Shown here: positions 21,583-43,591 of the stretch, one piece after another
Numbering within the stretch: the first letter of the stretch is position 1
Layout: each line of letters begins with the position of its first letter
Translations under genes and position numbers: made by a program
Notes under the pieces: model-generated
Database searches by the model: none
What the model saw: only the letters and a program-made list of their open reading frames with translations
Told to the model about the DNA's origin: nothing
Assembly (NCBI RefSeq): GCF_017355785.1
Contig: NZ_JAFEWE010000003.1
Location: forward strand, 1-64,000
Direction of reading: 5' to 3'
DNA from: Desertivirga arenae
Lineage (GTDB): Bacteria; Bacteroidota; Bacteroidia; Sphingobacteriales; Sphingobacteriaceae
Length of the DNA: 64,000 nt

Positions 21583-22003
21583 TTGTTCAGGTCTTTTTTT
21601 AGATTGGCTTTTGAAAGTTCTAATTTAATCTAAAACTGTGAAATGCTATAGTCTATTTGTTGTTATCTTGTTTCTATACTTTAACTATCATCAACCATTG
21701 CCTGGCTAGTTCTTCAACATAATCCTGGAAAGCACCTGAACTTTTAAAAGTATCAAAAGTATAAGCGGGTTGATCTTTCATAACTTCGACGTTATAATAG
21801 CAATGCTTTGAAGGTTATTGTGCTAATAAGAAAATCAGGAAGAGCAACACTGTCGCTTTCAAAGGACTGAATTGTAGGTTTTTAGATATCGAAAATGCCG
21901 CATTTAGCAGAAATAATTAGCTCTATTATATTAAAAGGTAGAATTGTACCTTTTAAATAATCAGGTGAACAACTTATATTAGTGCAGTGAATATAACCTT
22001 ATC
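21583..22003. other. 421-base intergenic region with a 26-base inverted repeat
   Basis: No gene recognised. It separates the divergent membrane-protein operon (minus) from the RDD gene (plus), so promoters for both should lie here. The strongest structure is TTAAAAGGTA-gaattg-TACCTTTTAA at 21931-21956, with perfect 10-base arms. The half-site TTAAAAGGTA appears again at 22614-22623 and its complement at 23276-23286, each flanking a gene. Confidence 0.55.
21931..21956. repeat. perfect inverted repeat TTAAAAGGTA/TACCTTTTAA
   Basis: Ten-base perfect arms around a six-base spacer, 48 bases before the RDD gene start. It could be an operator or a hairpin. The half-site recurs in the next two intergenic gaps. 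Confidence 0.7.
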
Positions 22004-39806: not shown

Positions 39807-41099
39807 TTATAAGCTAAGTTTAACAAAGTAGAGGCGGTTACGGTCTACTGCATTTGTTAAGGGTAGCATCTTTTGTGCGAATCCGCTAGCTCCATTATCT
39901 ACCACGCCGAAATCGTCGTCGTTCGAGATCACCAGGATGTTACCAGGTAAAATTGCAAGTCCTTCTGCTTTATCGTGAGGATATACAGAAGGAAGATCTT
40001 TCAACAGGTCTAAGACTAAGGTTTTAGTTACCGGGGTAATTCCTGCTGCTGTTAGCCCTGCTGCATTATTTAATTCTTCGACCGTTTTTCCGCCATAAAG
40101 CTTTCCGTTTGTTCCATTGGCTGGGTCGGAAATATCAGTAGCTGATGAGATATCAATTTTGAAGACCTTTTTGAAGGAAGCGGGATTGGTAGCTGCTCCT
40201 CCAAAGGCTCCGTCTCTTTCTAAGGTTAAAAATGTAGTACTGTTTACAGCTACTATTTCACTAACACCTGTCAGGCTGGTGTTCTCCATTAGATAAGCAT
40301 ATTGTTTAGTAGCTCCTGTAGCAATATCATAAGTCAGGATGCGGAGTACTACCGAGTTTGAAACAGCTGTTCTTGAAGGGTTGTACATCGGCGACTGCAT
40401 TATTCCAACCAAGGTTTTGCCATCTGGAGTGATGGTCAAGCCTTCCATTCCTCGGTTTGCCCGTCGCGTAGCAAAAACGGCCGGAATGCGACGGCCGCCT
40501 TGTCCGGTACCAAATGGATTGATACGTTCCAAAGCTTTACCTGTAGCATCAAAATGGGCCAGGTGAGGACCATATTCATCGCTTACCCAAAAAGTGCCAT
40601 CAGACATCCTTACCAGCCCTTCTGAATCTATTCCGTCTGCACTCGGGGTAAGTACGGTGCCATTCAGGTCGTAAGCTGTTTCTCCGGAGGCGCCCATTCC
40701 TGCAGGGTTTGGAAGTCCGTTCAACTTGCCTCCATTTGCGTTCTTTAATTCGATCACTTGTTCAAGCACCAACTTTCCATCCTTTAATCTGAACTTCCCA
40801 ATCTGTGGTGCAAATTCGGGCTTCCCAATGATAATTGAATTAGCAGCCTGGCCAGCTACATTGGAACCTCTGTCGGTTAACATATAGAACACATCTGGAG
40901 TTGAGGGATCTACCGCTACAGCTGATCCATATCCTCCATTATATACTTTTACACCATTACTTGCCGTAAATAAAATTGCAGGGTCTGCTGCCTCTGCCAT
41001 GGCAGGATACTCAATGGTCCTGGTTTCGTTATTGTCTTTTTTACAGGATGTAAAGGCTATGGTTAAAGCCGCAGTAAAACTTAGTACTTGTTTATTCAT
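39807..41099 (-). CDS. esterase-like activity of phytase family protein, 430 aa
   Basis: A lipoprotein with signal ending FTSC (Cys19). The body is the phytase-like esterase fold (PF13449): 'GGYGSAVAVDPSTPDVFYML', 'GLVRMSDGTFWVSDEYGPHLAHFDATG', 'RRANRGMEGLTITPDGKTLV' and 'VYPHDKAEGLAILPGNILVISNDDDFGV', each a blade with conserved Asp/Glu that bind calcium. Periplasmic or outer-membrane anchored; substrate (phosphate ester or similar) unknown. Full length for the family. Confidence 0.85.
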   Translation of the reverse strand: MNKQVLSFTAALTIAFTSCKKDNNETRTIEYPAMAEAADPAILFTASNGVKVYNGGYGSAVAVDPSTPDVFYMLTDRGSNVAGQAANSIIIGKPEFAPQIGKFRLKDGKLVLEQVIELKNANGGKLNGLPNPAGMGASGETAYDLNGTVLTPSADGIDSEGLVRMSDGTFWVSDEYGPHLAHFDATGKALERINPFGTGQGGRRIPAVFATRRANRGMEGLTITPDGKTLVGIMQSPMYNPSRTAVSNSVVLRILTYDIATGATKQYAYLMENTSLTGVSEIVAVNSTTFLTLERDGAFGGAATNPASFKKVFKIDISSATDISDPANGTNGKLYGGKTVEELNNAAGLTAAGITPVTKTLVLDLLKDLPSVYPHDKAEGLAILPGNILVISNDDDFGVVDNGASGFAQKMLPLTNAVDRNRLYFVKLSL

Positions 41100-41210: not shown

Positions 41211-41241
41211 TTTGATATGATCGCTAAAAGCTCTATATTTG
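41211..41241 (+). promoter_or_regulatory. consensus Bacteroidota promoter TTTG-N19-TATATTTG
   Basis: TTTG at 41211-41214 and TATATTTG at 41234-41241 are exactly 19 bases apart, the best match to the Bacteroidota sigma factor pattern in this window. Transcription would start near 41247. No plus-strand gene follows; the next gene (rnr) is on the other strand. Confidence 0.75.
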
Positions 41242-41246
41242 CTGAA

Positions 41247-41307
41247 CAAATAATTGTGATAAGGTTTAGGTTAGTCTGCTGTCTCATACAGCAGGCTTTT
41301 TTATTTT
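41247..41307 (+). ncRNA. candidate small RNA of about 60 nt
   Basis: The promoter at 41211 is followed, 26 bases after the expected start, by a 10-bp stem AGTCTGCTGT/ACAGCAGGCT (41273-41297, one G-T pair) and TTTTTTATTTT. A transcript of roughly 60 bases would begin and end between the phytase-like gene and rnr. It has no ATG. The transcript is not known to exist; the call rests on the promoter-terminator pair. Confidence 0.5.
41273..41307 (+). terminator. intrinsic terminator of the candidate small RNA
   Basis: Hairpin with 10-bp stem and CTCAT loop, then TTTTTTATTTT on the plus strand. The opposite strand has no T tract, so it does not serve rnr. Confidence 0.75.
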
Positions 41308-41434
41308 AAGGGCTTCTGGGTATTTCAGCAGGCATAAATGCAGAAGGTCCCGCTTTTATTACCTGACCTTTGGAGCCGGGTAATTAGCAAGACCTTCTTT
41401 AATTTATTTAAAAGTTTTTAAACGCGTTCAGGCT

Positions 41435-43591
41435 TTAAAAATCCCATTCGTTTTTAGCTTTATCCTGGATCAGCGTGAAATCGATCTGCCGTTTAGCCAG
41501 ATCTACTTTCCTGACCATGATCTTAACTTCGTCGCCCAGCTGATACTTCTTCTTTTTGCGCTGACCGATGATGCAGTAATTTTTCTCGTCTAATACATAG
41601 AAATCGTCACTGATATCCCTTAACCGGATCATTCCTTCACACTTATTCTCAATGATCTCGACATACATACCCCATTCGGTAACACCTGAAATAATACCAT
41701 CGTATTCTCTTCCAATGTTCTCTTCGAGGTATTCTGCCTGTTTGTATTTCACCGATGCTCTTTCTGCATCGGCTGCTTTCTTCTCCATCTGAGAGGCATG
41801 CAGACATAGCTTCTCATAATGTTCGGCATTTACATTCTGACCACCGTCAAGATAGTGCTGCAAAAGACGATGAGCCATCACATCGGGATACCGTCTGATC
41901 GGAGAGGTGAAGTGCGTATAAAAATCAAAAGCCAAACCGTAGTGGCTTGTTTTTTTTGTCGTATAGATCGCTTTTGCCATGGAACGGATGGCAAGGGATG
42001 TTAGCACGTTCTGTTCTTTTTTCCCTTCAACATCTTCCATCAAGTGGTTTAACGAGCGTGCAATCTCCTTATCCGATTTGGTATTGATCTTATAACCGAA
42101 TTTAGAGGCAAATGCAGCGAAACTAAGCAATGTTTGTTCGTTAGGCGCATCGTGGGTACGGTAAACATAGGTAAGCTTGTTTTTGCCTTTTCCTTTTTTG
42201 GCAATAAACTCTGCTACTTTTCTGTTAGCGAGGAGCATGAAATCCTCAATTAACTTATGAGCGTCTTTCCGCTCTTTAACGTACACCCCTAAAGGCTTGC
42301 CGTTTTCGTCGAGTTTGAACTTTACCTCTGAGGTTTCAAAGCTGATTGCACCATGCTTGAACTTGCGGTCCCTCATCTTGTAAGCCAGATCATTAAGGAT
42401 CAGGATCTCTTCAGCATACTCTTTTGAGTTTCCTTCGATCACTTCCTGGGCTTCCTCGTAACTGAAACGCCTGTCTGAATGAATGATCGTTCTTCCGAAC
42501 CATTCGGTTATGATATTAGCTTCCTTATCTAACTCAAATACAGCAGAGAAACATAGTTTATCTTCTTTAGGGCGTAAGGAACAAACACCGTTGGAAAGTC
42601 TCTCAGGTAGCATCGGGATCACCCGGTCTACCAGGTAAACCGAAGTGCCACGGTCAAACGCCTCTTTATCCAGAGGGGAGTCTGGCAGAACATAGTGCGA
42701 AACATCCGCGATATGCACCCCAACCTCGTAATTACCATTATCCAGATATTGAAAGGAGATGGCATCATCAAAATCCTTGGCATCTACAGGGTCAATAGTA
42801 AATGTTAAGACCTGACGAAAATCCTTTCTCTTAGCGATCTCTTCTTCTGTGATCTCATCTGGAATTTGATTTGCTTCATCCTCTACTTCATCAGGAAATT
42901 GCAGTGGGAATCCATACTCGGCCAGAATAGCGTTCATCTCGGTGTTATTCTCGCCTTGTACACCTAATACCCTGGTGATAGTACCTATAGGATTTTTCGC
43001 TTCTTCTGGCCAGTCGGTTATTTTTGCAATGGCTTTTTCGCCATGTTTAGCACCGTTTAATTGTTCTAAAGGAATAAAGATATCCCTTAGCATTTTCTTA
43101 TCATCCGGAATGAAGAAGGCGAAATTTTCAGAAACCTTTACCAGTCCCGTAAATTCCATCTTTGCTCTTTCCAGAATTTCAACCACTTCGCCCTCTTTAC
43201 GCTTTCCTTTATTCTTGGCAAATACGTAGATCTTAACCCTGTCGCCATTCAAGGCTGTTTTAACTTTGCGTGGAGCAATATAGATGTCCTTTTCGAATTC
43301 ATCCTCAGGAATGATGAAGGCTGACCCGTCACTGGTCATTGATACGACTCCGGTAAGGAAGGTCTTCAATTCCTTCAGCTGGAATTTACCCATCTCTACT
43401 TCCTTGAACAAGCCATTCTTGGTTTCATCTTTTAAAACCTCCTTAATGATATCCCGTGATTCGGCATCCTGAAGGCTTAACTTTGCTGCTACCTGTTTGT
43501 AGTTTAAAGCTTTATTTCCGTTCTTCTCAAAGATATCACTGATAAGCTGAGAAAAAACCTGTATGATATGTGCTGTTTTCTTTTTAACCAT
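41435..43591 (-). CDS. rnr: ribonuclease R, 718 aa
   Basis: A 3'-5' exoribonuclease of the RNB family that degrades structured RNA. Domains in order: N-terminal helix-turn-helix-like segment and cold-shock domains (1-230), RNB catalytic domain with 'FTIDPVDAKDFDDAISF' (metal-binding Asp cluster) and 'HYGLAFDFYTHFTSPIRRYPD', and a C-terminal S1 domain ('GREYDGIISGVTEWGMYVEI'). Length is typical. Cytoplasmic. Confidence 0.95.
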   Translation of the reverse strand: MVKKKTAHIIQVFSQLISDIFEKNGNKALNYKQVAAKLSLQDAESRDIIKEVLKDETKNGLFKEVEMGKFQLKELKTFLTGVVSMTSDGSAFIIPEDEFEKDIYIAPRKVKTALNGDRVKIYVFAKNKGKRKEGEVVEILERAKMEFTGLVKVSENFAFFIPDDKKMLRDIFIPLEQLNGAKHGEKAIAKITDWPEEAKNPIGTITRVLGVQGENNTEMNAILAEYGFPLQFPDEVEDEANQIPDEITEEEIAKRKDFRQVLTFTIDPVDAKDFDDAISFQYLDNGNYEVGVHIADVSHYVLPDSPLDKEAFDRGTSVYLVDRVIPMLPERLSNGVCSLRPKEDKLCFSAVFELDKEANIITEWFGRTIIHSDRRFSYEEAQEVIEGNSKEYAEEILILNDLAYKMRDRKFKHGAISFETSEVKFKLDENGKPLGVYVKERKDAHKLIEDFMLLANRKVAEFIAKKGKGKNKLTYVYRTHDAPNEQTLLSFAAFASKFGYKINTKSDKEIARSLNHLMEDVEGKKEQNVLTSLAIRSMAKAIYTTKKTSHYGLAFDFYTHFTSPIRRYPDVMAHRLLQHYLDGGQNVNAEHYEKLCLHASQMEKKAADAERASVKYKQAEYLEENIGREYDGIISGVTEWGMYVEIIENKCEGMIRLRDISDDFYVLDEKNYCIIGQRKKKKYQLGDEVKIMVRKVDLAKRQIDFTLIQDKAKNEWDF

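Follow-up and report, generated by a model that had tools for sequence, protein, structure and literature searches.

Desertivirga arenae carries a multicopy family of predicted small RNAs with an invariant unpaired core that recurs in bacterial relatives and viral contigs

A short promoter-terminator unit in Desertivirga arenae very probably belongs to a genuine family of small-RNA (sRNA) genes, a judgment that we base on the comparison of sequences. That comparison establishes the family itself, the invariance of its core, the covariation of its predicted hairpins, and the differing types of its putative promoters; transcription (there are no expression data) and the pairing of the core with mRNA leaders are inferred. 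We consider it reasonably probable that this is a multicopy family of trans-acting, FopS-like sRNAs in which the core is an antisense seed. With about the same degree of confidence, we read the D. arenae unit as a gene for an sRNA of ~55 nt whose real target set has not been identified, above all in D. arenae.

The window (i.e., the whole stretch of 64,000 nt that was analyzed) contains the unit on its plus strand. Direct reading and pattern matching place a −33-type box, TTTG (41,211 to 41,214), exactly 19 nt 5′ of a −7-type box, TATATTTG (41,234 to 41,241), of the Bacteroidota sigma-A type, TAnnTTTG. The predicted RNA of ~55 nt (41,247 to 41,303), both ends of which are inferred from the promoter and terminator positions and are unmapped, would include the invariant core ATTGTGATAAGGTTTAGGTT (41,253 to 41,272), which is defined by exact copies in the genome and the family, is predicted to be unpaired, and is our proposed antisense seed. 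The core is followed by a 10-pair intrinsic-terminator hairpin, AGTCTGCTGT-CTCAT-ACAGCAGGCT (41,273 to 41,297; terminator scan and paralogue alignment A1), and by the T-rich tract TTTTTATTTT (41,298 to 41,307; terminator scan). The hairpin begins ~26 nt past the expected RNA start (~41,247), and its stem is the longest among nine terminator-like sites between 38,000 and 45,000; the RNA is predicted to fold into 26 unpaired nucleotides and one hairpin at −14.4 kcal/mol (z = −2.5). No listed open reading frame (ORF) of ≥50 amino acids (aa) overlaps the unit. The neighboring ORFs, both outside the unit and both on the minus strand, encode a phytase-like esterase (39,807 to 41,099; Pfam match to PF13449) and a 718-aa protein (41,435 to 43,591; ORF list) that by eye we take to be RNase R-like. 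The unit fits the general kind of a trans-acting sRNA in having a putative promoter of its own, an intrinsic terminator, and an intergenic position. At 41,342 to 41,398, a 13-nt inverted repeat (AGAAGGTCCCGCT / AGCAAGACCTTCT; 85% complementary, 31 nt apart), which by eye encloses ATTACC/GGGTAAT, sits in the 3′ region of the minus-strand gene at 41,435 to 43,591 and may be its end structure.

An earlier sequence-only reading of the window had described the two boxes and their spacing, a strong terminator ~26 nt after the start, and a location between two genes of the opposite strand, and it was correct on all of these. It had also singled out the promoter as the clearest in the window; both boxes are indeed present and the pattern TTTG-N18-20-TAnnTTTG occurs only once there, but on its own this is at chance level, given that 1.42 occurrences are expected in shuffled sequence and that the pattern arises once or more in 73 of 100 shuffles. 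The nine terminator-like sites in the 7-kb stretch are likewise near chance (6.6 expected; SD, 2.5). Taken alone, the promoter-terminator pair would not convince; what raises the unit beyond chance is its family of copies in its own genome.

When the unit is used as a DNA query against the 6.19-Mb D. arenae genome, it returns 20 further matches at E < 1e-3. The sequence TTGTGATAAGGTTTAGGTT is exact in 19 of the 20 fetched copies as well as in the window copy; the copy L016 retains just the 3′ part and, without the exact core, is left out of alignment A1. The full 20-nt core has 20 exact copies in this genome (window copy included). It has no copies with one or two mismatches and four with three, a number that the reversed-pattern control also gives. 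A covariance model finds 24 matches at E < 1e-3, four of them weak. In the terminator stems of A1, 84.7% of the cells are paired (70.7% when shuffled), and there are 29 double changes versus 12.7 in shuffles; the number of pairs showing a double change is weaker evidence (8 versus 5.8, a value reached by 39 of 500 shuffles). Most paralogues have the loop type yCyCATA in their terminator hairpins. None of the 23 copies examined lies inside an ORF as called by a simple ORF caller, two abut an ORF within 5 nt, and no recurrent neighbor gene could be seen by eye at these 23 places.

The core extends to many relatives. Of 251 genomes from the bacterial family, 87, spread over 15 of 25 genera, contain an exact 18-nt core, at 1 to 20 matches per positive genome (D. 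arenae, with 20, has the highest number) and with no match in a reversed-pattern control; a few of the matches counted are not sRNA genes. All 51 genomes of one genus (g14) have the core, with 1 to 12 matches each, and we judge this genus to be Mucilaginibacter from loci identical to named ones (L252 = L170; L263 = L142), while the large genera g4, g5, g13, and g16 have no match to the 18-nt core. The covariance model matches 13 of 41 genomes, that of D. arenae included, and has no match in 16 genomes from other families of the same class. Genomes of named species contain the core in at least 116 stretches, chiefly in Mucilaginibacter; among those listed, the other named holders are Pedobacter, Hufsiella, Daejeonella, Paradesertivirga, and Olivibacter, together with two oddly labeled metagenome-assembled genomes (Methylococcaceae and Chitinophagaceae). 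Of these 116 listed stretches, we took 109 as sRNA genes and set aside by eye 7 that have the core without hairpins; L148 and L176 were dropped from the folding survey, and four loci with short upstream sequence were dropped from the promoter counts. A scan of the phylum with a second model found matches in at least 8 of 395 genomes, seven of them in the same family (D. arenae included) and one, a weak match, elsewhere; this figure is a lower bound because the filters were strict and no more than 11 candidates were scored per genome. Locus L332 (~1501 to 1582), in a genome from another family of the class (G497), has a weak model match (E = 7.6e-4), a core variant (AGTTAAGGTTTAGGTT), and a terminator-like stretch. 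It could be a distant family member, a point that we leave undecided.

In most relatives, the predicted RNA takes a fuller form, in which the bare core is preceded by a 5′ hairpin and followed by a terminator hairpin whose inner loop is small (e.g., GCGAG or GCAAG). The 30 nt upstream of the core fold at −4 kcal/mol or better in 120 of 131 loci, versus 25% of shuffles. The downstream fold reaches −8 in 130 of the 131 loci, a lax limit that 49% of shuffles also pass, and its mean is −19.8 versus −8.0 in shuffles. Compensatory change is seen in all 12 predicted pairs of a 43-row alignment (A3), in which 90.8% of cells are paired and 108 are double changed (30.8 when shuffled). In D. arenae, L028 (C38:36449) is the only copy in which a strong hairpin directly adjoins the core, and two other copies fold upstream at −4 or better; given this scarcity of the upstream hairpin, we assign the window copy to a reduced, amplified branch. 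Across the family, the constant part is the core, which is predicted to be unpaired, while the hairpins beside it change.

Putative promoters are found at consistent places upstream of the core. An exact TAnnTTTG lies 8 to 24 nt upstream in 6 of 20 D. arenae copies (shuffled mean, 0.27; maximum, 3), and 11 of 20 qualify if one mismatch is allowed (4.1 in shuffles). The same box is present 30 to 70 nt upstream both in 27 of 105 listed loci of relatives (versus 4.2) and in 7 of 24 viral copies (versus 0.8); with one mismatch, the viral count of 10 versus 5.5 is within the shuffles. A second motif, TTGG[CT]A[CT]-N5-TTG, which we take to be of the sigma-54 type, occurs in 25 of the 105 listed loci (0.1 in shuffles), always 50 to 53 nt upstream of the core, a distance at which transcription would begin at or near the first base of the 5′ hairpin. 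This motif is absent from all 20 D. arenae copies, the 11 copies in relatives of its own genus, and the 24 viral copies. All but one of the 25 loci belong to a set of 30 syntenic loci that follow an anti-sigma-like gene (a label given by eye; Pfam gave none). In 28 of the 30, its sigma factor (Sigma70_r2, Sigma70_r4_2) is present as well; these 30 loci are orthologues and not independent events. At L153, L169, L192, and 27 similar loci, the leaders of the sigma/anti-sigma-like gene pair itself have TGTAACCT...GTCA, unlike the sigma-54-type promoter of the sRNA. The predicted promoters therefore differ in type between copies of the family.

The sequence-only reading had named conservation of the boxes and stem in related genomes as a check on its small RNA, and this check is passed: the covariance model matches 13 of 41 genomes, the core is in 87 of 251 against none for its control, the stems covary, and TAnnTTTG precedes 6 of 20 copies where 0.27 would be expected. 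The small-RNA interpretation is supported, and the unit stands as that reading drew it; what it missed were the ~20 paralogues and the fact that the unpaired linker, not the stem, is the most conserved part.

The core is also present in 24 IMG/VR viral contigs. PHROGs matched 8 of 10 neighboring proteins tested from nine viral contigs, including tape measure, head maturation protease, portal, major head protein, and DNA polymerase. In four viral contigs, a tRNA gene is called on the sRNA strand, at most 90 nt 5′ of the sRNA. The L237 copy comes after a five-tRNA cluster and L238 is also tRNA adjacent (both by ARAGORN); the tRNA preceding the sRNA at L227 and L246 is called by Rfam only, and L241 and L248 have tRNA-like ends by eye that are called by neither program. 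The Rfam match at L246 (7019 to 7149) spans 131 nt without an ARAGORN call and is perhaps an interrupted or odd tRNA. When a phage copy and a 30-nt consensus were blasted against named phages, only chance-level matches were obtained.

How does this family compare with known systems? FopS of Bacteroides thetaiotaomicron is described as 14 paralogous sRNAs of ~65 to 70 nt, one phage copy being reported, with a conserved single-stranded 5′ part, an intrinsic terminator, and sigma-A-type promoters; the RNAs are bound by the RRM protein RbpB, and the seed pairs at the start codons of SusC homologues (PMC11697453). Like FopS so described (Rfam RF04319, BTncRNA_FopS), our family is multicopy and has a shared single-stranded sequence followed by a terminator hairpin, and the 7-mer UAAGGUU is common to the Rfam consensus UUUAAGGUU and the D. 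arenae core AUAAGGUUUAGGUU. Unlike FopS, it has a fuller form with a 5′ hairpin before the core and sigma-54-type promoters in some relatives, and SusC leaders are not enriched as partners in D. arenae. At gathering score, Rfam gives no match in the whole window and only tRNA matches at 16 related loci; the FopS model (gathering score, 56 bits) accordingly matches neither. For the window copy, this model gives no match up to an E value of 5 to 10, and the D. arenae copy L048, with a 5′ hairpin, scores 15.3 bits (E = 3.5). Given a FopS-like outline and a model score below gathering, we propose that the family works like FopS, without its having been shown to be FopS. GibS of Bacteroides is a 145-nt RNA from a single gene (gibS); it has a 5′ single-stranded seed and a terminator, and it acts at start codons (PMC7366714); the seed and terminator are shared, whereas the D. 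arenae family is ~55 to 80 nt and multicopy. The sibling sets Qrr, LhrC, and OmrA/B, which are named in the FopS paper, similarly have several copies with a common seed and separate promoters, but up to 7 copies (PMC11697453) compared with up to 20 here. In the D. arenae family, moreover, the constant part is unpaired and, where the fuller form is present, has a changing hairpin on either side. A literature search found no paper describing this sRNA family and returned the core string only in the text of one unrelated paper.

We posit that each family member would have its own promoter, the constant unpaired core, and an intrinsic terminator, to which the fuller form would add the 5′ hairpin. 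The core would pair as an antisense seed with mRNA leaders beside the start codon and block translation; copies under different sigma factors would feed different signals into one post-transcriptional response, in which an RRM-type RNA-binding protein possibly takes part. Is there evidence of such pairing sites? Read on the complement, the core of the hairpin-less stretches lies 14 nt (L142) and 3 nt (L170) before an ATG; the others are unclear. The antisense 14-mer ACCTAAACCTTATC at most 28 nt before ATGAA has 26 matches in the 251 genomes. Fifteen of these are the sRNA genes, which leaves 11 other sites: Mucilaginibacter accounts for ten, and the last is in G042, a genome where the core is matched as well. 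A dinucleotide-preserving shuffle of the search gives one match; the sense orientation gives five (one sRNA gene, one degenerate own copy, and three others), and reversed patterns of the antisense, shuffle, and sense searches give 1, 1, and 4, respectively. There are thus 11 antisense sites versus 1 to 4 in controls over the 251 relatives, and the D. arenae genome is negative. Next to these sites are genes for a LacI-type regulator, a TonB-dependent outer-membrane protein, and an M56 peptidase, among others, some of which lack a Pfam match; six of the ORFs that start there exceed 100 aa, two have 35 and 52 aa, and three have 31 aa or fewer. The sites stand before unrelated genes at ~0.2 per Mucilaginibacter genome, with no recurrent target among the 11.

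A scan of gene starts in D. arenae covered 1,147 starts in 1.66 Mb (27% of the genome). A complementary 10-mer is present at 3 of these 1,147 starts (2.2 expected) and an 11-mer at none, and the best core duplex, at −19.9, is reached by 23 of 300 shuffles. One of the three starts is at window position 22,003 (plus strand), where AACCTTATCA, complementary to 10 core nucleotides, ends at the ATG of an ORF whose product begins MEEEYEYKPQ. The D. arenae genome (G000) encodes at least 56 SusC-type proteins above the family cutoff. The leaders of 30 of these average −9.01 kcal/mol, versus −9.22 for dinucleotide shuffles, and on this absence of enrichment in 30 leaders we rejected SusC leaders as a FopS-like target set. 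AACCTTA, the complement of the 7-mer shared with FopS, is in 16 leaders (6.5 expected), but it ranks 115th of 10,345 7-mers and was chosen after the fact; signal-peptide-like starts are not significantly enriched among the genes concerned (10 of 16; P = 0.05 to 0.09), and these leaders are a lead only. The near-matches with three mismatches at L105 and L106 have no clear target layout. Since there is no target enrichment in the D. arenae genome, the targets and the mechanism are not identified.

Could a protein, rather than mRNA partners, hold the core constant? The main rival to an antisense seed is a core that serves as a protein-binding site, such that the RNAs would collect or titrate an RNA-binding protein (e.g., an RbpA/B-like RRM_1 protein), with copy number and promoters setting the amount of sponge. 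We think this unlikely, if still to be taken seriously. A single-stranded, invariant stretch of 18 to 20 nt between two freely changing hairpins would suit such a site, an invariant core without a conserved target is also expected of one, and the lack of target enrichment in D. arenae is in keeping with it, as is the reported binding of FopS RNAs by an RRM protein (PMC11697453). D. arenae has three RRM_1 proteins and no match to Hfq. Moreover, at 9 of 109 listed loci, the sRNA has an RRM_1 gene no more than two genes away, when ~0.3 would be expected by our own estimate (from about three RRM genes per genome). These RRM_1 findings and the lack of an Hfq match also count in favor of the antisense reading, with its possible RRM-type partner. 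These nine loci represent about four contexts, i.e., six in one syntenic context, L161 with the gene directly 3′ of the sRNA, L174, and L196; with six of nine in a single context, there are few independent events, which weakens the case. By their coordinates, the three RRM_1 genes of D. arenae are not adjacent to its sRNA copies, and the excess of antisense sites before ATGAA in relatives favors the antisense seed.

We regard as very improbable a third reading, in which the unit is a dispersed repeat or terminator cassette that owes its spread to a mobile element or to recombination and does not function as an RNA. Many copies with unrelated flanks and the copies in viral contigs would fit such an element, as would the five tandem copies, 157 to 160 bp apart, in the relative G002 (Pedobacter sp. 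SYSU D00535 by sequence). However, compensatory changes have accompanied the divergence of the terminator stems, whereas the core has stayed the same; the promoter boxes stand at set places upstream; and the gene order around the fuller form is conserved. The G002 array is at L084, 1501 to 2187 (C16), and its spacers are alike. A chance meeting of promoter-like and terminator-like sequences would agree with the chance-level pattern counts in the window but is refuted by the exact copies and opposed by all of the comparative evidence, leaving it virtually no probability.

The occurrence of related copies in viruses and throughout the bacterial family suggests a common signal for gene control. 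We speculate, as a tentative idea that we would not yet favor, that the core is an RNA address of 18 to 20 nt that does not vary within a bacterial family, that phages have copied, and that is displayed on a two-hairpin scaffold free to change. Copies in the host, whose promoters are of the sigma-A type, the sigma-54 type, and other types, and those in phages, some of which lie in tRNA clusters, would all address one partner, either a single RRM protein or a group of mRNA leaders, and phages would thus enter the post-transcriptional network of the host with the host's own signal. Outside Bacteroides, the sRNAs of Bacteroidota have hardly been explored, and the genome concerned here has no match to Hfq. 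Is an RNA sequence kept constant by numerous mRNA partners or by a single protein? The family offers a test of this question, as well as a marker with which to follow the use that phages make of the RNA networks of their hosts.
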